Assembly (NCBI GenBank): GCA_029224905.1
Contig: JAQXVL010000186.1
Coordinates: 1 to 38,410 of the forward strand
Source of the DNA: Bacteroidales bacterium
GTDB taxonomy: Bacteria > Bacteroidota > Bacteroidia > Bacteroidales > Muribaculaceae
Length of the DNA: 38,410 nucleotides
Direction: 5' to 3'
The translations under genes were made by a program, and so were the position numbers. The first letter of the stretch is position 1. The number at the start of each line of letters is the position of its first letter. Positions 5,408 to 31,457 of this stretch are shown one piece after another. Below the pieces are notes generated by a model. The model worked only from the letters and a program-made list of their open reading frames with translations. It was not told the origin of the DNA and did no database searches.

Positions 5408-8400
5408 CTATTTTTGGAAGAATTTTAAGATTTGACACATAAGTTGGTTGCGAGCGTCGCTGTCGGTAATCGTTTCGAACGGGAACCCGACGACGCAGGT
5501 TTTGTGGCTACCGAGGTCGGCAACGATGCCGGCGGATATGTTGTTTTCGTCGTAGCGAAGCAGGGTGCATGCGTTGTCGGTGTTAGCCGGTTGCAGTGCG
5601 TCGGGCGACTCTACGGCGTAGATTCGGTCGTTGTATTGTTGTGCAAAACTGCAGTTAAGTTTGCCGAAATCGTCGAAGTAGGTCGGCACGAGGTGTGCTT
5701 TTCCTTCGACGGCTGCTTGCCCAACGACCCACTTGTAGCCGAGCACGTCGGAGGCGAATTTTTTCTTTTCGTCGGTCGATTTCTTGTTGTCCCAAACGTC
5801 GGAAGCCACGTAAGCGCCGCTGACGAAGATGTTTCCGCCGGCGTTGCAGAACGCTGTGACGGCTCGTTGCAGTTCGCTCGAGTAGAGGGCAAAGCGGTCA
5901 GGCATTTCGCCGCGACCGATGACGGTTGTTTTTTGCTTGCCGAGAATCAGGTCGGCTGTCGGGTATTTCGTGAGGTCGAAACTTCCGCTTTCGACAGATT
6001 CGAGGCTCGCTGAAACGAAAGAATAGCCTGCGGCAAGAATCGATTCGCCGTGGGTGTAGGCGAAGTCGAAGGTGTTGCCGGCAATCACTTCGGTCTCTTT
6101 GTCGGCGCGCGATGAGCCGAATCCGCAAGAGTCGTCGCTTACCCACGGAAGTTCGCGGCGGAACTCAAACATTGCGCCGATGTAGTTGATGTCGTTGATG
6201 TAGGGCACACCGTTGTCGTATTCGGGACGGAATCCGGCGATTTCGCCCGAGTCGAACGAGTCGGGGGCTGACACGCGGGTAAATCCGTTGACGATGGCAA
6301 CAGTGCCTTTCGAATCGGGTGCAACAGCCAGGGCGAGCGTTTCCGACGGGAAACTTTTGCCGCCGTCATTGCAGGCTACGATTTGATAGCTGTGGATTAG
6401 GTTGTCGTCGACGGTTACGGCGAATTCGGTGTCGTCGGTTGTCGCAATTTGGCGGAAACCGCTATTGCCGATGCGTTCAAGCACGATGTAACTGCGAGCT
6501 TCGGCGCGTGCGCATTGTTTGTCGACGGTGGGTTTCCACGAGAGTGTGAAGCTGCGGTCGGCGGTTTGCGCGATGGCGAAACTGTTGACGGGGAGCGGCT
6601 GGATTTGGTAGTCGTGGCGACCTTCAACGTCGGCGAAAAACTCGGCGATGCCTTTATAGATGGCGCGCGAAACGGTGAAGCGGAATGCCGGGTCGAGTCC
6701 GTAGCGCATGTCGGCGAGGTTTTGGTGCGACAGCAGTTCGAGAAGCATTGCGGGCACTTCGGGAACGCGTGCTTCGTAGTATGATTCGTCCCACATACCG
6801 CGGCGAGTCCACTTGCTGTCGAATTGCGAGCGAACGTCGTTGGTGATGTTTGTCAGGACGTAGTCGGTGAGTTTGTGCGAGTTGAATCGGTCGGTGCCGT
6901 TAGCGTAAGTTTCGCCGCGTGTGCAGTAGATACCGAGCGTGCCGATGATAGTGTCGTCCATCGTCGTTCCGGCGTCGGAGTGGAATGCGAACGAGAGGTC
7001 GACGGGAATGTTTAGACCCGGGCGGTCGGGCAGCGTCTTTGAGCCGCCGGCGAGGTAGTTCACCCACAGACCGCGGCAACGGTAGTCGTCGGTGTAGTCG
7101 TTAGCGCCGTTCGACGGCGAATAGATTGTGTCGGGTACGCCCGCCCATTGGAGCCAGTAGCGAGCGGCTTCGGTAAATCGCGGGTAGCCGCTGACGGTGT
7201 TTTCGCTCTTGACGCGGAGTTTGACGGTTTCGGCGGGCTTGTCGGATTCGCTGGAGCGTACGTTGGCGAGTGCTTCGGTGTTAGCGCAGCGTGCGATGTT
7301 GCCCATACCGCCGCCGATTTTGACGGCATCGGCTGTGATTACGGCGTTTTTATGTGCCGAGTGATTTGTGAGTTCGACGATTGTCTGTTCGCCGCTGTCG
7401 AAGTGGAAGTGACCGAGGTAAATCCAAGTGGAGCCGCCCATTGTTTGGTTGACGCGAAAGGCGCGGTCACCTTCGGCGGAATGTACGGTGTAGGTAGCGT
7501 CGTTGGCGCTGTTCGGCAGAGTTGCATACGAAACGTAGACGGCATATTTCCCGGCTTGCGGAATTGTTGCCGACCAGGTTGCCGCTGCGGTTTTATCGGA
7601 TTTTGTTGCGTCGATTTTGCGGAATGTGCCGTGAGTGAACGGGTTGTCGAAGCCTTCATAACTCTGTCGGTCGTGCTTGAATCCCGTGCCGCCGTCGGTC
7701 CAACTTTTGTCGCCGTCGGTTTCGGCATATTTGCCGGTAGCGAGCGAGCCGTCGTTGTCGACGATGATTTCGACGGTGTTGGTGTCGCGTTCGCGAGGGC
7801 TCATAACGTAGGCGCCGGCATTTTCGAGCATGGGCATCAAGAACGGCATGACGTAGCTTTGTGTGTAGAGGTCTTCAACGGTTTGGAAGATGCGCGCGCG
7901 TTGCCATTGCCAGCGGTTTGCTTTTTGCTCGAAGAACCAGCCGTGGCTTTGCCACATTGCGATGATTTTGCCGTCGAGGCCTTTCGCGGGATGCCGCGTG
8001 TCGTCGAGCGGGAAGATAAACCAATCGTCTTTGTGGTTGTTGGCTGTATAGTCGAGGCGTGTGCTGCGGAGAAAGTCGGTTGCCGGGCGCTTGCTGATGA
8101 GCAGGTCGAGGCGATAGCCTTTATACTGAGCGCCGAGTGCGGCTTTCGCTTTTGTTTCGAATTCGGTAAGGAATGCTTTGTCGAAGGGAATGTAGCCGAA
8201 GTTGTCGTTCATACCGATTACGACGCGTCGCGCTTTGTCGTCGACGGTTGCGCTGTCGACGGCAATTTTGCCAATCTGCATATTTGCAGGAATCATGGCA
8301 TTAGCAGTTTTGGCTATTCGGTCTCTAACGTTCTTTGCTAATGGTTGTTCTATTGCCTTAGCTATCGATGCCGTAAGCATGAGCATAAGGATAATTGCAA

Positions 8401-23554: not shown

Positions 23555-26500
23555 TCAGATGCTTATTTTACGGGTATATGTGCCGTTGGCGGTCGTGCAA
23601 CGTACGATGAACAGACCTTTGAGGGCGCCGATGTTGACGCTCGAGGTGTTGACGTTTCGGCTAATCAGTGCGCCTGCGATGTTGTAGATTTCGACGATGT
23701 CGACCGTGGTATTGAATGTCAAGCGGTTGCCCGCGCGAGTTATCTTCAGACTGCTGACGTTCTCGTCGACGCCCGACGGCACGTTGCGGTAGATGGTGTA
23801 GGCGGCGAAACCGATGGAAGGAAGGTAGAAGTAGACGTTGGCGCTTTTGCCGTCGCTACTGATTTCGTGGTCGGCGCAAATGTCGCCGTACGAGTCTGTC
23901 GCATAGGGGCCGAAGCCGCCTGTCATGCCCGGCACTTCCCACAGATGTTCCATCAATGCGTATTCGTAGTCGCTATTTGTGCTGACGATGTTAAATGTTG
24001 AGCCTTGGCGGATGCCTTTGTTGGGGTAGACCACGAAATAGTCTTCGCCGAGTTGGAAGAATGTTCCGCCGGTGCTGACGGTTTGTGAGTCTTGGTTTGT
24101 GCCGATTTCGGGGATAACGTCGTTGTTTGCGTTGTCGAACGAGTCGTATTCGCCGGTCGAGAAGTTATATTTTGTCAGCGATGTGTTGCAGCCGTTGATG
24201 AAGAACCAATCGTTGTCTATGGGCATAACGCGTGGAGCCATGCCGAATGAGCCTGCGTTCGACGGCCAGTAGTACGGCGCCGTGAAGGTCGACTGCGATG
24301 CGAGCGAGCCGTTGCGGTAGGTCCACTTCTGCACGCGTTCGGTGTTGGCTTCGCAAGCGAGTACGAAGAAGTTGCCCGACGTTACGTCTCCGTAGACGTT
24401 GCAGTGGTCGATGCGCCTGCCTGTCGACGACGTTACCGATGCCACTTGCGTAGCCGAGCCGCTCGAGAGGTCGATGCGGTGGATTTTTATTGCATATGAT
24501 GAGCAATTGAGCACCATATTGGCAATGCATACGTTGCCTTTGGAGTCTTTGAAAATGCTGTTGTTAGGGAAGTAATAGGCTTGTACGGTAGTCGGGAGGC
24601 TAAGTTTGCCGATATATGCTCCGGTTAGGGCGTTGAATTTTGCGAGGTAGCACGACGAAGTGCTCGCGTTTTCGTCGCGTCCGGTGACGTAGATGACGTT
24701 GTCTTTCACGCAGAAGTCGCGGTTATATCTGAAGTCGGTATAGCTCGGCATATTACCGGTAGCGGTTGAGCGGAACCAGAGATTCTCGATGTTGTAGCAG
24801 CCCGACGGGTTATAGTCGGTGTTGTCGTAGGTCACGTTGTAGGAACTTTCGCTCGATGCGTTGTTGACCTTGAACGAACGGGTCTCGGAGTATGAGGCGT
24901 AGACGCCTTGAGCCGAGGTCTTGACGCGCCAGTAGTAGGTCGCGTTGGCGAGTGTCGATGCGCTGATGAAGAATTGCCAGTTGCCGTTGTCGGCAATTCC
25001 CCAGCCGTCGGGCGCCGAAAGCGGCTCGGTGACGAGCGTGGTGTTGATGACGGTCGATGAGAACGACGACGAGGCCGACACTTCGAGCGTATATTGCGTA
25101 GCGTTTACGTGAGTGAATTCGAGGAAGAAACTTCCGGCAACAGTTTTGCCGCTTGTCGGCGAAACGAGGGTCGTTGCCTCGGCATATTCGCGGTGCGGCG
25201 TGTCGAACGACCAGACTTCCGAAACGGAGTCTTTATAGCCTTCTTTCGACGTCGTTACGCGCCAGTAGAGCGTTTGGTTGTAGGGCAGGGTTGCGGCGCT
25301 GATGGTCGTCGAGTTTGATTGCAAATCGGCGCTGTAGATTACGTTGCTGAAGTTCGCGTCGGAGGCAATCTGCAGATAGTAGGTGCAACCTGCCACCTTC
25401 GTCCAACTGAAACCGAACGACGAAACATCGTCGAGCGTAGAGCCGTTGGCGGGCGACTGAAGCGTTGTAGCGCCGGCGGGCGTCTTGTCGGCGGTGGTGA
25501 ACGACGAAACGTCGGAGGTGCAGTCCCAAGCGTTGTTTTCCGACGTTGTTACGCGCCAATAGTATTTCGTAAGTCCTTCGAGTTGCGTGCGCACGTTTAT
25601 CGTTTTCGAGTTGGTTGTTAGTCCGGATTGCTCGTAAACGATTGTCGAGAAGTCGGATTTGCTCGAAATTTGGATGGTGTATTTCGTGTTAGTGCCTGTT
25701 CCGGCGGTCCATGAGAATGTTGCGCTGCCTTCTACGCCGGTAGCTCCGTTCGACGGCTGCGTAAGCGTTACCTTGGTTGCAAATTTCGTGATTTCGTTGC
25801 TGTAGCGTGCGTCGTATTCGTAGCCGTATCGGTCGTAAACGGTTACGGCGAAATAGTAGCCGCTTTGGTATGCCGACGGGATGGCGTAACTGTTGGTATA
25901 GGTCACGCCGAGCATGTAGTCGGAGGCAATTCCGCCGCCCGAAACGGTACTCTGCACGGCGCTCGTTGTCTTCGATTCGGGGATGGCATAGACGATGTAG
26001 CGGATGTTCGATGCCGGAGCGTCCCAAACGAGGTTGGTGCCGCTCACTTCGAGGTTGTCGACTTTGCCATAGGTTGTCGAGCCCTTCTTCCACGACATCG
26101 TCGGCGGAAGAGCAGGCTTTTGATAGACCGTGCTGATGAGGTTGTTGACCAGGTTAAGGGTTGCGTGGCTCGCCTTGAACGAAATCGACCGATAGTGGAT
26201 TATGCCCGGTGCACCTGTCTTTGTCAGGCTGCGATTGTATTGAATTTGCTTTTTGATGGCGTCATAGCCGCCGAAGCTGGATACATAGTCGCTACCCATA
26301 TCTTTGTCGCTTCTATAGTCGGCAATACTTGCATAATATTGGCGTGAAAATTGGTTGGCAACTGTCGACCACCATGGGTCAAGCTTGTCGAGCGGATAAC
26401 TGCTGCCGTAGTCGGATACGCCCCAATAGAGTTGCGGCGATACGAAGTCGAGATACCGGTTCTTGAGCCATGCAACCGGGTCGGAGAAGATTCGGGTGTA

Positions 26501-27355
26501 TTGACCATCGGAACCAACGGTACAACGTGCAACCCCATGCCCCGAGGCTACCGACGAACTTGTACAAGCGATGCCTTGAGGCGAAACTCCGAAAGAGCAA
26601 TAAGGCTTGATGCTTTTTATGCGAGTATTTACGGCGTTAATCATTTGGTTGACGTTGTTGCGACGCCAATTGCCTATCGACGACCATCCTGAACTTTTAA
26701 ATAGGTTATAGTCATTGGCTGCTGATGACTCTGGAATGTCGCTTGGGTAAAAATAGTCGTCGAAAATCACGCCGTCGACGTCATATTTCGTTACAATCTC
26801 GCCGACGACGTTGCAAATGTAGTTGGTCACTTCCGAAAGTCCGGGATTGAGGACATATGTTCCGTTATACTCAAGCAGCCAACCTTTGTTGTTTATGTTC
26901 TTGTCTTGGTTTGTCGAATTCCATAGACCTGTTTTCGCCGTGGCGAAACGGTATGGGTTAACCCACGCGTGCAACTCGATGCCGCGTTTATGTGCCTCTG
27001 CGACCCAGAATTCCAACGGGTCCCAGCCCGGGTCGGCTCCGCGAGAGCCGGTCAGGTAACTCGACCATGGCTCGTAGCTCGACTTGTAGAACGCATCGGA
27101 GCACGGACGCACTTGCAGATAGACCGCGTTGATGTGGGCTTTTTCGAGTTGGTTGAGGTAGTCGATGGCTTCGTTTTTCTGGCTGGTAATCATCGACGAA
27201 CTAACGCCGACACCGACGCTTGGCCAGTCGAGACTCAGGAATGACGTCATCCACGTGCCGCGGAGTTCTCGCTTCAAATACGTGTCGGCTGATACATTTA
27301 AGGTCATAACGGCAGCCGCCAACAGGAATAATAACTTTTTCGACAGAAATCCCAT
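23555..27355 (-). CDS. GHL10/DUF187-family (YngK/DigH-like) glycoside hydrolase with FN3-like repeats, C-terminal beta-propeller-like region and T9SS-like C-terminus
   Basis: 1266 aa; ELRGTWMTSFLSLDWPS, INAVYLQVRPCSDAFYKSSYEPWSSYLTGSRG, RGIELHAWVNPYRFA, VDGVIFDDYFYP; three WRVTTS-type FN3 segments; C-term VDIVEIYNIAGALISRNVNTSSVNIGALKGLFIVRCTTANGTYTRKISI. Confidence 0.88.
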   Translation of the reverse strand: MGFLSKKLLFLLAAAVMTLNVSADTYLKRELRGTWMTSFLSLDWPSVGVGVSSSMITSQKNEAIDYLNQLEKAHINAVYLQVRPCSDAFYKSSYEPWSSYLTGSRGADPGWDPLEFWVAEAHKRGIELHAWVNPYRFATAKTGLWNSTNQDKNINNKGWLLEYNGTYVLNPGLSEVTNYICNVVGEIVTKYDVDGVIFDDYFYPSDIPESSAANDYNLFKSSGWSSIGNWRRNNVNQMINAVNTRIKSIKPYCSFGVSPQGIACTSSSVASGHGVARCTVGSDGQYTRIFSDPVAWLKNRYLDFVSPQLYWGVSDYGSSYPLDKLDPWWSTVANQFSRQYYASIADYRSDKDMGSDYVSSFGGYDAIKKQIQYNRSLTKTGAPGIIHYRSISFKASHATLNLVNNLISTVYQKPALPPTMSWKKGSTTYGKVDNLEVSGTNLVWDAPASNIRYIVYAIPESKTTSAVQSTVSGGGIASDYMLGVTYTNSYAIPSAYQSGYYFAVTVYDRYGYEYDARYSNEITKFATKVTLTQPSNGATGVEGSATFSWTAGTGTNTKYTIQISSKSDFSTIVYEQSGLTTNSKTINVRTQLEGLTKYYWRVTTSENNAWDCTSDVSSFTTADKTPAGATTLQSPANGSTLDDVSSFGFSWTKVAGCTYYLQIASDANFSNVIYSADLQSNSTTISAATLPYNQTLYWRVTTSKEGYKDSVSEVWSFDTPHREYAEATTLVSPTSGKTVAGSFFLEFTHVNATQYTLEVSASSSFSSTVINTTLVTEPLSAPDGWGIADNGNWQFFISASTLANATYYWRVKTSAQGVYASYSETRSFKVNNASSESSYNVTYDNTDYNPSGCYNIENLWFRSTATGNMPSYTDFRYNRDFCVKDNVIYVTGRDENASTSSCYLAKFNALTGAYIGKLSLPTTVQAYYFPNNSIFKDSKGNVCIANMVLNCSSYAIKIHRIDLSSGSATQVASVTSSTGRRIDHCNVYGDVTSGNFFVLACEANTERVQKWTYRNGSLASQSTFTAPYYWPSNAGSFGMAPRVMPIDNDWFFINGCNTSLTKYNFSTGEYDSFDNANNDVIPEIGTNQDSQTVSTGGTFFQLGEDYFVVYPNKGIRQGSTFNIVSTNSDYEYALMEHLWEVPGMTGGFGPYATDSYGDICADHEISSDGKSANVYFYLPSIGFAAYTIYRNVPSGVDENVSSLKITRAGNRLTFNTTVDIVEIYNIAGALISRNVNTSSVNIGALKGLFIVRCTTANGTYTRKISI

Positions 27356-27789: not shown

Positions 27790-28239
27790 ATGAAGAAATT
27801 AGTATTGTTGTTTGCGGTAATTTTTGCCTTCAGCGCGTGTGCGCAGACGAAGACCGAAACCGCTACCGAGGAGACTGCAACGGTTGTCGAACCGACGGAG
27901 ATGAACCTTGAAATGTTCACCGAAAAGATATGCGACGTCAACACCAAGACGTGGAAATTCAAAGGCGAACGCCCGGCGGTGATTGACTTTTATGCCACTT
28001 GGTGCGGCCCCTGCCGAGCGCTGTCGCCTCTGGTCGACAAGGCTGCCAACGAATATGCCGGCAAGGTGGATTTCTACAAGGTGGACATCGACAAAGTGCC
28101 CGAATTGGCGCAACTTTTCGGCATTCAGTCTATTCCGGTGCTGCTGTTCATTCCGGTCGACGGCGAGCCGCAAGGTTCGATGGGGCTTATCTCCGACGAC
28201 GAATTGCATCAGCGCATCGACTCGCTGTTGGCAAAATAA
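27790..28239 (+). CDS. Thioredoxin-family lipoprotein
   Basis: Start chosen at MKKLVLLFAVIFAFSACAQT (lipobox FSAC); FYATWCGPCRALSP. Confidence 0.92.
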   Translation: MKKLVLLFAVIFAFSACAQTKTETATEETATVVEPTEMNLEMFTEKICDVNTKTWKFKGERPAVIDFYATWCGPCRALSPLVDKAANEYAGKVDFYKVDIDKVPELAQLFGIQSIPVLLFIPVDGEPQGSMGLISDDELHQRIDSLLAK

Positions 28240-28246
28240 GAGGCTC

Positions 28247-28624
28247 TTAGTCTCTTACGAAGTGCCGTACGAGTAAGAAATTTGTCGGCACGCAGATGGC
28301 AAACACCGGTATCATTGCCAGGCTCTTCGGTACCCCGACGTGAATGAATAGCAGGAGCAATGCCCATTGCAGAACGAAATTGACCACGTGACTCAGCGCA
28401 AAGCCTAACGCCTTGCGTAGGTTCGGGTTTGTCTTGAATGTGAAAAATACCGTCGAAAAGAAGTTGAACACAAAGCTCACCAGGTAGCCGACGACGAAAG
28501 CCGTATTGTGTCCGGTCGCGGAGAGAAGCAGTAGGTAGACGCCATACTGGATAGCCACGGCTGTTGCGCCGACAATGCAGAAGCGCAACGCCTCGCCGAC
28601 GGTTGTTTTCTCTATTTTACCCAT
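28247..28624 (-). CDS. GtrA family membrane protein
   Basis: Start at MGKIEKTTVGEALRFCIVGATAVAIQYGVYLLLL; four TM segments; VVGYLVSFVFNFFSTVFFTFK. Confidence 0.88.
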   Translation of the reverse strand: MGKIEKTTVGEALRFCIVGATAVAIQYGVYLLLLSATGHNTAFVVGYLVSFVFNFFSTVFFTFKTNPNLRKALGFALSHVVNFVLQWALLLLFIHVGVPKSLAMIPVFAICVPTNFLLVRHFVRD

Positions 28625-29211
28625 TTCGGAAAGTCGGAAAGTTGAAGCAATTCGCGGTCGCCTCGGCTGTCGCCATAGGCGTAAAGCACGTAGTCGGCGC
28701 GGTTGGGCTCGCATTCGAGCAGCCGTCGCACTTTCTCCGCGCCGTGGCAGTTTTTCGTGCTGAAGCGTCCCGTAAGATGTCCGTCGACGACTTCTACGCG
28801 AGTCGCCAGCACGCAGTCGGGCTCGACTCCTGCCGACGTGCACCACGGGCGCACCCATTCTTCGATGCTTGCGCTGACGACGTAGGTGCGGTCGCCCTCG
28901 GCAATGTGTCGGCGCAGTGCTTCGACCGTTTCCGTACGCTTTATTTCGTCGACGCGCCGGGCGAACTCTTCGCCGAGACGGCAAAATCGTTCGTATTTCA
29001 TGCCCTTGAAGAAGCACGCAAACAGTTGCTGTTTGGCATACGAATTGCTCACAAGGTGTAGTACGTATGCCGCCAAAACGGGTGAGCAAAGTGCCAATCC
29101 GGCATAGAGTCGACCGCTGCCGCAAGAAAATTTGATGAACTCAAACAGCGTGTCGCGCACGGTGAGCGTGCCGTCGAAGTCGAACGCTGCTACTTTCGGG
29201 CGATTTTCCAT
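28612..29211 (-). CDS. HAD-IB family phosphatase
   Basis: 199 aa; VAAFDFDGTLTVRDTLFEFIKF, YVVSASIEEWVRPW, YAYGDSRGDRELL. Confidence 0.88.
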   Translation of the reverse strand: MENRPKVAAFDFDGTLTVRDTLFEFIKFSCGSGRLYAGLALCSPVLAAYVLHLVSNSYAKQQLFACFFKGMKYERFCRLGEEFARRVDEIKRTETVEALRRHIAEGDRTYVVSASIEEWVRPWCTSAGVEPDCVLATRVEVVDGHLTGRFSTKNCHGAEKVRRLLECEPNRADYVLYAYGDSRGDRELLQLSDFPKWVK

Positions 29212-29223
29212 CTTTGAGGCGTA

Positions 29224-30108
29224 TTAAATGTAAATAATAATCAAGAACGCAACAACCCATCCGGCAAGGCAAACCTGCAAGAATCTGTCGTGGATGAGCA
29301 CCTTCGTCGGGCTGCCGCTGCGGACGTTAACAATCGTAATTTGCAGATAGCGGATGATTCCGGCAAGGACGAATATCGAGGTTAAATAAAGATAATTGCC
29401 CCCCCCCTGGAATCGTGCAACTACGTCGCTGCTAACCGTATACATAATGTAGCACACCATCGTGACGGCAGCCACGAAGCCGATTGCTTGATTCATAAAA
29501 TCGAGATTGTAGGAGGCAACGTTTTTGCGAGGCAGTACTCCCGTTTGTTCGTAGATAGCCACATCGTCGCGGCGTTTGGCAAGTGCCAAAAACAGAGCAA
29601 GCAGGAACGTCATAAGCACAATCCAGTGCGAGATGTAGATGCCTGTGGCAAAGCCGCCGACAAAGATGCGCAGCACGAAGCCGATAGAGATGATAAACAC
29701 ATCGACGATTGCTATTTGCTTGAGCTTCAGGCAGTAGGCAATGTTCATAACGAAGTAGACGCCGATGGCGATGGCAACTTTGTTCCAACCATCGCCGATG
29801 AAATATGCCGATACAAACGAAGCCGCCAAGCAAATTGCGGCAAGTGCCCAACCGGCTGCCGTGCTGACAGCGCCGGAGGCAATGGGGCGGTGGCATTTCT
29901 TGGGATGTCGGCGGTCGGCTTCGACGTCGACAATGTCGTTGATGCAGTAAATGCCGGCGGCAACAAAGCAAAACGCAACGAACGCAAGTAGCGTCGGCAG
30001 AAGGGCATCAGTGTCGAAGAGTTGACCGCTGAAAAACAACGGCAGAAAGACGAATCCGTTTTTCAACCATTGGTGCGGTCTGAGCAGTAGAACGATATTT
30101 CGAATCAT
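29224..30108 (-). CDS. UbiA prenyltransferase superfamily, decaprenyl-phosphate phosphoribosyltransferase (DPPR synthase)-like
   Basis: 294 aa; RPHQWLKNGFVFLPLFFSGQL, YCINDIVDVEADRRHPKKCHRPIASGAVS, KRRDD. Confidence 0.88.
   Translation of the reverse strand: MIRNIVLLLRPHQWLKNGFVFLPLFFSGQLFDTDALLPTLLAFVAFCFVAAGIYCINDIVDVEADRRHPKKCHRPIASGAVSTAAGWALAAICLAASFVSAYFIGDGWNKVAIAIGVYFVMNIAYCLKLKQIAIVDVFIISIGFVLRIFVGGFATGIYISHWIVLMTFLLALFLALAKRRDDVAIYEQTGVLPRKNVASYNLDFMNQAIGFVAAVTMVCYIMYTVSSDVVARFQGGGNYLYLTSIFVLAGIIRYLQITIVNVRSGSPTKVLIHDRFLQVCLAGWVVAFLIIIYI
29399..29407 (-). repeat. Mononucleotide tract: nine G on the coding strand, inside the UbiA-like CDS
   Basis: Plus strand ...aattgCCCCCCCCCtgg...; coding frame CAG GGG GGG GGC. 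Confidence 0.9.
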
Positions 30109-31367
30109 GCTTTAGCGGGTTTTGCGGTTTTCAAATCGAGCCAATACGCAGCCCAGATGATGGCAGCGAAGAAGAATGGATAGTGGTAGCGCGGCGAGAC
30201 GGAGAAAATACACGTCGACAGCGTGCCCAGCAGCAGTAGCAAGAGTAGGTAACCTTTGTCGGTCAGGATGTCTTTGCGCCGCTTGACGACGGCAATGACA
30301 AACATCAGCAGCACGGCGTAGTAGACCACCGACTTGTAGAACATATTCCACACGCGCTTGACAATCGACGCCTTGTCGGCACCGCCGTGGGCGGCTTTGT
30401 CGACAAACCCGTCGCCGCCGATAATCGGGCGTTCGGGCCACGAATCTTCGACATAGAGTCCGGCGAGTTTCATCACGTAGAGCGTGGCAAATCGTCCCGG
30501 GTGCGACTTAATCCACTCGATGGCGCGGGCTTTGCGAATGGAGTCGCGCTCGGCAAACGTGTAGCGCTCAACATCTTTGATGTAGCACGTCGAGGTCGAG
30601 TCGTTGCAGAGCGACGAAGCCACGCCGCCGTAGGCTTTGTCGTTGGCGGTCATTATCAGGTTGATGCCCGACGTGGTCGATTGGTAGACGAAATAGCCCA
30701 TTTGGCGTTGCGCCAACAAGCCGAAACCAATGCTCAGCAGCACGATTGGCGCCAAGAGGGCAACGTAAGATGTCCACCGCGATTTGTGCCGCCAAAAGTA
30801 CAGCAAAATCACCGGAACGAAGATGATAATCAGCGGGCGTACCCAGTTGGCGAATGCCAAAAGCACACCTGCCAAGGCAATCCTACGCAGCCGCGGTTGC
30901 AGCGATAGCGATAGCGCCGTAATCGACAGAAAAAGGAAAGGCACTTCGGTTCCCGCCGGCAGCACGACCATCACATTAGAATACATCAGGCAGAACAGCG
31001 TAACGGCGATGTAGGCTGTGCGTCGGCTGAAAAAGCGGTTCGAAAGATACCATACGTTCCACAGTATGCCGACGTTCATCAGCAAGTTTAGGAAGAAATT
31101 CGCCTTCAGCGTGCCGAACAATTTGAGCTGCAGAATGAAGAAGTTGATAAGTCCGGGAGCCCAAATATATGAGGTGTAGATACTGTCGACGTCGGGATAC
31201 CAAACGCCTTTTTCGAAGCATTCGGTAGCCATTTTTATGTATAGACCCTGGTCGCTACGTTGTGCAACGTCCCAAAACACAACGATAAGCACTACTTGAA
31301 GCAGAAACCACAGAGCCGTAGCTCCGATTGCCGCACGTTTCCAAGTCAATAGAGTTTTTAGTTTCAT
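30105..31367 (-). CDS. GT-C type integral membrane glycosyltransferase (family 39/ArnT-like)
   Basis: 420 aa, multiple TM segments; VVFWDVAQRSDQGLYIKMATECFEKGVWYPD; 4-nt overlap with the UbiA gene. Confidence 0.72.
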   Translation of the reverse strand: MKLKTLLTWKRAAIGATALWFLLQVVLIVVFWDVAQRSDQGLYIKMATECFEKGVWYPDVDSIYTSYIWAPGLINFFILQLKLFGTLKANFFLNLLMNVGILWNVWYLSNRFFSRRTAYIAVTLFCLMYSNVMVVLPAGTEVPFLFLSITALSLSLQPRLRRIALAGVLLAFANWVRPLIIIFVPVILLYFWRHKSRWTSYVALLAPIVLLSIGFGLLAQRQMGYFVYQSTTSGINLIMTANDKAYGGVASSLCNDSTSTCYIKDVERYTFAERDSIRKARAIEWIKSHPGRFATLYVMKLAGLYVEDSWPERPIIGGDGFVDKAAHGGADKASIVKRVWNMFYKSVVYYAVLLMFVIAVVKRRKDILTDKGYLLLLLLLGTLSTCIFSVSPRYHYPFFFAAIIWAAYWLDLKTAKPAKA

Positions 31368-31386: not shown

Positions 31387-31394
31387 CAAAGATA
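31387..31394 (-). promoter_or_regulatory. -7 element TATCTTTG for the GT-C/UbiA/HAD/GtrA operon
   Basis: CAAAGATA on plus, 20 nt upstream of the start codon. Confidence 0.5.
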
Positions 31395-31457
31395 GTGTAA
31401 AATAATCGTATAACGAGCAAAAACATAGAAATTAAGTTATATTGGTAGGTCTAATAG

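Follow-up and report, generated by a model that had tools for sequence, protein, structure and literature searches.

A putative operon for periplasmic pentofuranose addition to a surface glycan in a Muribaculaceae bacterium

The mycobacterial DPA pathway is built from Rv3806c, the phosphatase Rv3807c, DprE1/DprE2, the GtrA-family protein Rv3789 and GT-C enzymes of the Emb and Aft types. TfpW is part of the group IV pilin arabinosylation of Pseudomonas aeruginosa, a Gram-negative system that places arabinofuranose (Araf) on pilin from a lipid-linked pentose donor made through a polyprenyl-phosphate phosphoribosyltransferase (PPPRS). O-antigen glucosylation of the Gtr type (GtrA/GtrB/GtrX) joins GtrA and a GT-C enzyme to a polyprenyl-phosphate-sugar donor, for which GtrB uses a nucleotide sugar. 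Finally, a three-component pentofuranose pathway has been proven biochemically in Citrobacter youngae O1 and O2 (Kelly et al., 2024; PMC11127046), in which the PPPRS of ORF15 (PPPRS-PRP) converts PRPP to polyprenyl-P-Rib-5-P and a HAD domain dephosphorylates the product, the MATE protein of ORF14 is the proposed flippase, and the GT-C enzyme of ORF12 (GT136) adds the pentose to the O-antigen in the periplasm. That paper also cites a P. aeruginosa PPPRS, PSPA7_6246, and its main text names no Bacteroidota. The pathway type has been known since this 2024 study, and the original prediction of such an operon in the DNA considered here is sound and not new in kind; what is new is a Bacteroidota version with a stand-alone HAD protein and GtrA, a G9 tract within its UbiA gene, and the DUF6080 family as the likely GT-C partner in Prevotella.

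The window, a stretch of 38,410 nucleotides (contig JAQXVL010000186.1), belongs to a 2.59-Mb draft genome that is 99.3% complete. On its minus strand lie four genes, beginning with a GT-C-like membrane glycosyltransferase of 420 aa (30105-31367), followed by a UbiA-type PPPRS (also DPPRS) of 294 aa (29224-30108), a HAD-IB family hydrolase (TIGR01490; 28612-29211), recognized by Pfam and NCBIfam models and with its DFDGT motif intact, and a GtrA-family small membrane protein of 125 aa (28247-28624), the 292-aa open reading frame in the same frame reflecting an over-long TTG start. Gene calls reproduce the predicted arrangement to the base, with a 4-nt overlap (ATGA) between the GT-C and UbiA genes, a 12-nt gap between UbiA and HAD (29212-29223) and a 13-nt overlap between HAD and GtrA. 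A minus-strand promoter-like site of the Bacteroidota type, TTTG-N23-TATCTTTG (31387-31421), precedes the first codon of the GT-C gene by about 20 nt. Its spacer, at 23, is among the longer ones allowed; sites of this TTTG-N type number six in the window against 0.84 expected. We infer that the four genes are co-transcribed as one unit. They are flanked by a divergent speA-like gene from 31534, named by eye from its protein, and by a convergent thioredoxin-fold gene that ends at 28239. Also adjoining the operon, on the minus strand at 23555-27355, is a gene whose product resembles GHL10 glycosyl hydrolases and has a T9SS type A sorting domain barely above cut-off. A recent foreign origin was rejected on composition, as the GC3 of the operon (0.62-0.68) is similar to that of neighbouring genes.

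The identity of the UbiA protein carries most of the argument. Its match to Pfam UbiA (2e-23) is accompanied by 220.2 bits against NF008978, the NCBIfam model for decaprenyl-phosphate phosphoribosyltransferase, for which the curated cut-off is 207, while it scores below the cut-offs of the sister models. Its best solved match is Mycobacterium tuberculosis Rv3806c (PDB 8j8j, E=9e-39), for which the residues contacting PRPP and decaprenyl-phosphate have been listed (PMC10994848). By pairwise alignment, whose numbering reproduces the residue letters of that paper, 11 of the 13 mapped contacts are identical: R22, K28, Y70, N73, D77, K87, R90, Y138, K143, K191 and K208 of Rv3806c correspond to R10, K16, Y54, N57, D61, K71, R74, Y125, K130, K178 and K195 of the window protein, in which the motif NDIVDVEADRRHPKKCHRPIASG occupies residues 57-79. 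The other two are conservative changes (Q135 to N122 and Y157 to F144), and the Y157 position is Phe in some mycobacteria (PMC10994848). This retention argues for PRPP as the donor. Other UbiA enzymes are reported to lack conservation at the sites that bind phosphoribose (PMC10994848). Judged from its sequence, the window UbiA is a polyprenyl-phosphate phosphoribosyltransferase, as had been predicted from its motif.

Gene calls were examined at 90 related loci, giving, with the window, 91 loci and about 1,306 genes; the counts are rough, being derived from sequence profiles and a hydrophobicity rule, and the HAD gene of the window itself was lost to an overlap rule. All 64 HAD relatives counted lie within four genes of UbiA, so their pairing is not due to chance. 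In 63 of the 91 loci the HAD gene is at most three genes downstream of UbiA (directly downstream in 54), and by the detection rule used 28 have no HAD near UbiA. The window HAD protein (Pfam HAD, 7e-37) is proposed, from its sequence, to be the 5′-phosphatase of polyprenyl-P-ribose-5-P. A fused HAD-UbiA protein at another locus (L024) was considered as a link between the two window proteins, but the window HAD does not match its HAD part.

The GtrA protein (Pfam GtrA_DPMS_TM, PF04138, 1e-16) is proposed to be a flippase or a partner protein. A rather unlikely alternative is that it acts as a scaffold that recruits the transferase, leaving the lipid to be flipped by another carrier. Such a role has been put forward for mycobacterial Rv3789, whose function is disputed between flippase and scaffold (PMC7389260), and an adjacent GtrA or SMR-like gene is missing from many loci. 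However, where such a gene is present (GtrA in 10 loci and an SMR-like protein in five, directly after HAD in 13 of these 15), the two kinds interchange at one position, the flippase position, as in L058, which has the same GT-C as the window (52% identical) and in which an SMR-like gene takes the place of GtrA; this interchange fits a transport role better, and the GtcA work also favours flipping.

The GT-C assignment is a weak one, drawn from the sequence matches to PMT_2 and a conserved motif. The window protein matches Pfam PMT_2 at 3e-4, below the curated cut-off; PMT_2 matches recur in all three orthologues and exceed the cut-off in L058. The SDxGxY motif that follows the first transmembrane segment is conserved, with D39 as its acidic residue. 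An AlphaFold model computed from three sequences is poor (pLDDT 48.5), and a fold search with it gave mostly GT-C oligosaccharyltransferases as top matches, none of them significant; a profile search against PDB sequences found no match. A GT-C-like membrane protein lies near UbiA in 58 of the 91 loci, and distant relatives of the window GT-C are also found away from UbiA (L143-L145), so the donor is not fixed by the GT-C family. The roles originally envisaged for the three partners (a phosphatase for HAD, a flippase or helper for GtrA and a periplasmic transferase for GT-C) agree with the sequence and neighbourhood evidence and with the Citrobacter pathway (PMC11127046).

Taken as a whole, it is probable that the operon serves to attach a pentofuranose to a cell-surface glycan in the periplasm, D-ribofuranose (Ribf) being the likeliest sugar. 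UbiA would act in the same role as the Citrobacter PPPRS, joining PRPP and polyprenyl phosphate into polyprenyl-P-Rib-5-P; HAD would take off the 5′-phosphate; GtrA would move the resulting polyprenyl-P-Ribf to the periplasmic side or help to do so; and GT-C would transfer Ribf from it onto an acceptor that is probably O-antigen still linked to its lipid, or else another polysaccharide of the cell surface. We infer the lipid carrier, the order of the steps, the sugar and the acceptor. Proteins of the GtrA and HAD families also occur in inositol-lipid clusters (PMC9246714); a reading of the operon in those terms was dropped, as CDP-alcohol transferases are present in such clusters and the paper makes no mention of a UbiA there.

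How does this arrangement compare with the described systems? As in Citrobacter, a UbiA-fold PPPRS, a HAD phosphatase, a transporter and a GT-C enzyme (weakly assigned in the window) are encoded together, and Ribf would be supplied without need for DprE1/DprE2. In contrast to Citrobacter, the window HAD is a separate protein instead of being fused to the PPPRS, the putative transporter is of the GtrA family (PF04138) and not of the MATE family, and the 420-aa GT-C, in which no carbohydrate-binding domain was seen, is matched in Pfam by PMT_2. The likeness to the mycobacterial pathway lies in the UbiA protein, a homologue of Rv3806c that has kept the PRPP site, and in a GtrA-family protein as in Rv3789, whereas the window has a HAD in place of an Rv3807c-type phosphatase, its genome yields no DprE1 and its host is Gram-negative. 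With the P. aeruginosa system it has in common a Gram-negative host and a pentose donor, predicted for the window, that a PPPRS builds on a lipid, but no pilin gene was identified near the operon. The Gtr systems are alike in pairing GtrA and GT-C with a polyprenyl-P-sugar, yet their GtrB draws on a nucleotide sugar while the donor synthase of the window is of the UbiA type and would use PRPP.

The identity of the pentose turns on epimerases. A donor of polyprenyl-P-xylofuranose, which would call for a separate SDR epimerase like Citrobacter O2 ORF13 encoded elsewhere, is possible in principle and appears improbable here: epimerases of the ORF13 type do diversify the Citrobacter pathway (PMC11127046) and an SDR-like gene adjoins UbiA at one related locus (L022), but there is no SDR gene in or beside the window operon. 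Still less credible is a donor of polyprenyl-P-D-arabinofuranose supplied by DprE1/DprE2 from genes at another site in the genome. In its favour, DprE1/DprE2 adjoin the same UbiA at three Bacteroidales loci (L020, L029 and L097). Together with a fourth locus (L102), where DprE1 joins the module, these also count for the main reading, as they make it likely that the same lipid intermediate is used in this lineage. For the L020 pair, the DprE1 model ranks first among the matches of DprE1 and the DprE2 model second among those of DprE2, both below the curated cut-offs. However, a Bacteroidales DprE1 query, which finds itself in its own genome (G027) and distant FAD oxidases elsewhere, has no match at E<=1 in the window genome, for all its 99.3% completeness, and the only match to PF01565 there is a 930-aa open frame. 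Counting the window genome, 20 genomes of the family carry the UbiA, and DprE1 is matched in none of them. The absence of an epimerase that the original prediction had remarked on at the locus thus extends, for DprE1, to the genome, and makes arabinofuranose unlikely and ribofuranose the most likely sugar. Two of the epimerase-bearing loci, from Bacteroidales or Bacteroidia (L020:8941-12494 and L097:9001-12522), encode UbiA, DprE1, DprE2 and HAD consecutively, and probably represent an arabinofuranose donor operon outside Actinobacteria.

An ordinary aromatic prenyltransferase of the menaquinone or heme type amid unrelated neighbours is the least tenable reading, for although the UbiA protein falls in Pfam UbiA and its NDxxDxxxD motif is common to ordinary UbiA enzymes, its scores against cyoE and UbiA-type models are small next to those of the phosphoribosyltransferase models, its PRPP-site residues are kept, another UbiA protein (L001) is present in the genome, and the same neighbour genes recur across genera.

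Among 149 sampled genomes of the order, 10 others have relatives of the window UbiA, as do 19 others among 149 from the family, and none of three congeners does; all three congeners are different on the upstream side of speA as well. The operon is thus accessory. Most of a set of 80 related loci are from Bacteroidales, with Segatella copri and Tannerella forsythia among the carriers of related loci, and three of the 80 lie in contigs labelled Fibrimonadaceae, Bacilli or Clostridia that may be binning errors. In one Prevotella locus (L065) the module follows an EptA-like protein of sulfatase fold and two acyltransferase-3 proteins, and at L015 and L017 it lies among nucleotide-sugar genes, neighbours that point to a surface polysaccharide. 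Together, the window and its 90 related loci indicate that gut and oral Bacteroidales often carry machinery for a pentofuranose, from which a prediction follows, open to test, on what abundant commensals display at their surface; the literature searched yielded no report of such a sugar in these Bacteroidales and nothing relevant on ribofuranose in Prevotella LPS. A 63% identical UbiA is also encoded on an unverified scaffold of 6.6 kb from human faeces that is labelled "Bacteriophage sp." (L161, MT837543.1) and is probably a mislabelled bacterial fragment.

In Prevotella the GT-C position may be filled by another family. There, UbiA and HAD, with or without GtrA, are followed by one to three DUF6080-like membrane proteins, and DUF6080 (PF19558) proteins lie beside UbiA and HAD at L065:11050-14074 and similar Prevotella loci. 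The family exceeds its cut-off in only 2 of 247 genomes of the order, in both of which it adjoins the UbiA gene; among 23 Prevotella-type genomes, copies number one to four per genome, wherever encoded. An AlphaFold model of a DUF6080 protein is of good confidence (pLDDT 85), and Foldseek relates it to GT-C enzymes, namely human OST, ALG12 and AftD, the best at E=8e-4. The adjacency to UbiA and the GT-C-like predicted fold make DUF6080, of which no mention was found in the literature searched, a likely GT-C partner of PPPRS, and its members are, on the predicted structure, likely pentofuranosyltransferases.

Lastly, the UbiA gene might be subject to on/off switching. The UbiA coding sequence contains a tract of nine Gs on the minus strand (29399-29407), the only G/C run of at least seven in the window. 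In the present frame it encodes GGG, a two-residue insertion absent from aligned UbiA orthologues, and in each of the alternative frames a stop codon follows the tract, after 4 and 23 codons; a change in its length would shift the frame, as at a contingency locus. In the closest relative (L025), an acyltransferase-3 gene directly after GtrA (6945-7989) is split into two frames by a G9 tract at 7254-7262, the two pieces matching successive parts of PF01757, so that in this related operon the tract resides in a glycan acyltransferase instead of UbiA. One congener (G192) has many G9 and G10 tracts (L178, L179, L181 and L183), several of them frame-breaking, for example in an aldo/keto reductase gene, and two within one acetyltransferase-like gene. 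These observations suggest poly-G on/off switching in this group, which, if real, would be an extra mechanism of surface variation in bacteria best known for invertible promoters. Against it, homopolymers are prone to assembly error, and the number of G9 tracts in the window genome is not above shuffle expectation (four observed and about four expected from dinucleotide shuffles of the window, scaled up). We therefore entertain only tentatively, as a possibility somewhat to be doubted, that the operon is phase-variable and that slippage at the UbiA tract toggles synthesis of the donor lipid and hence pentose decoration of the surface glycan. Of the other three G9 tracts in the genome (L157:1501-1509, L160:1501-1509 and L159:1501-1509), two lie in the signal peptides of related-looking secreted proteins, with RGGV soon after the start, and the remaining one is near the start of a SusC-like gene, just upstream of it.
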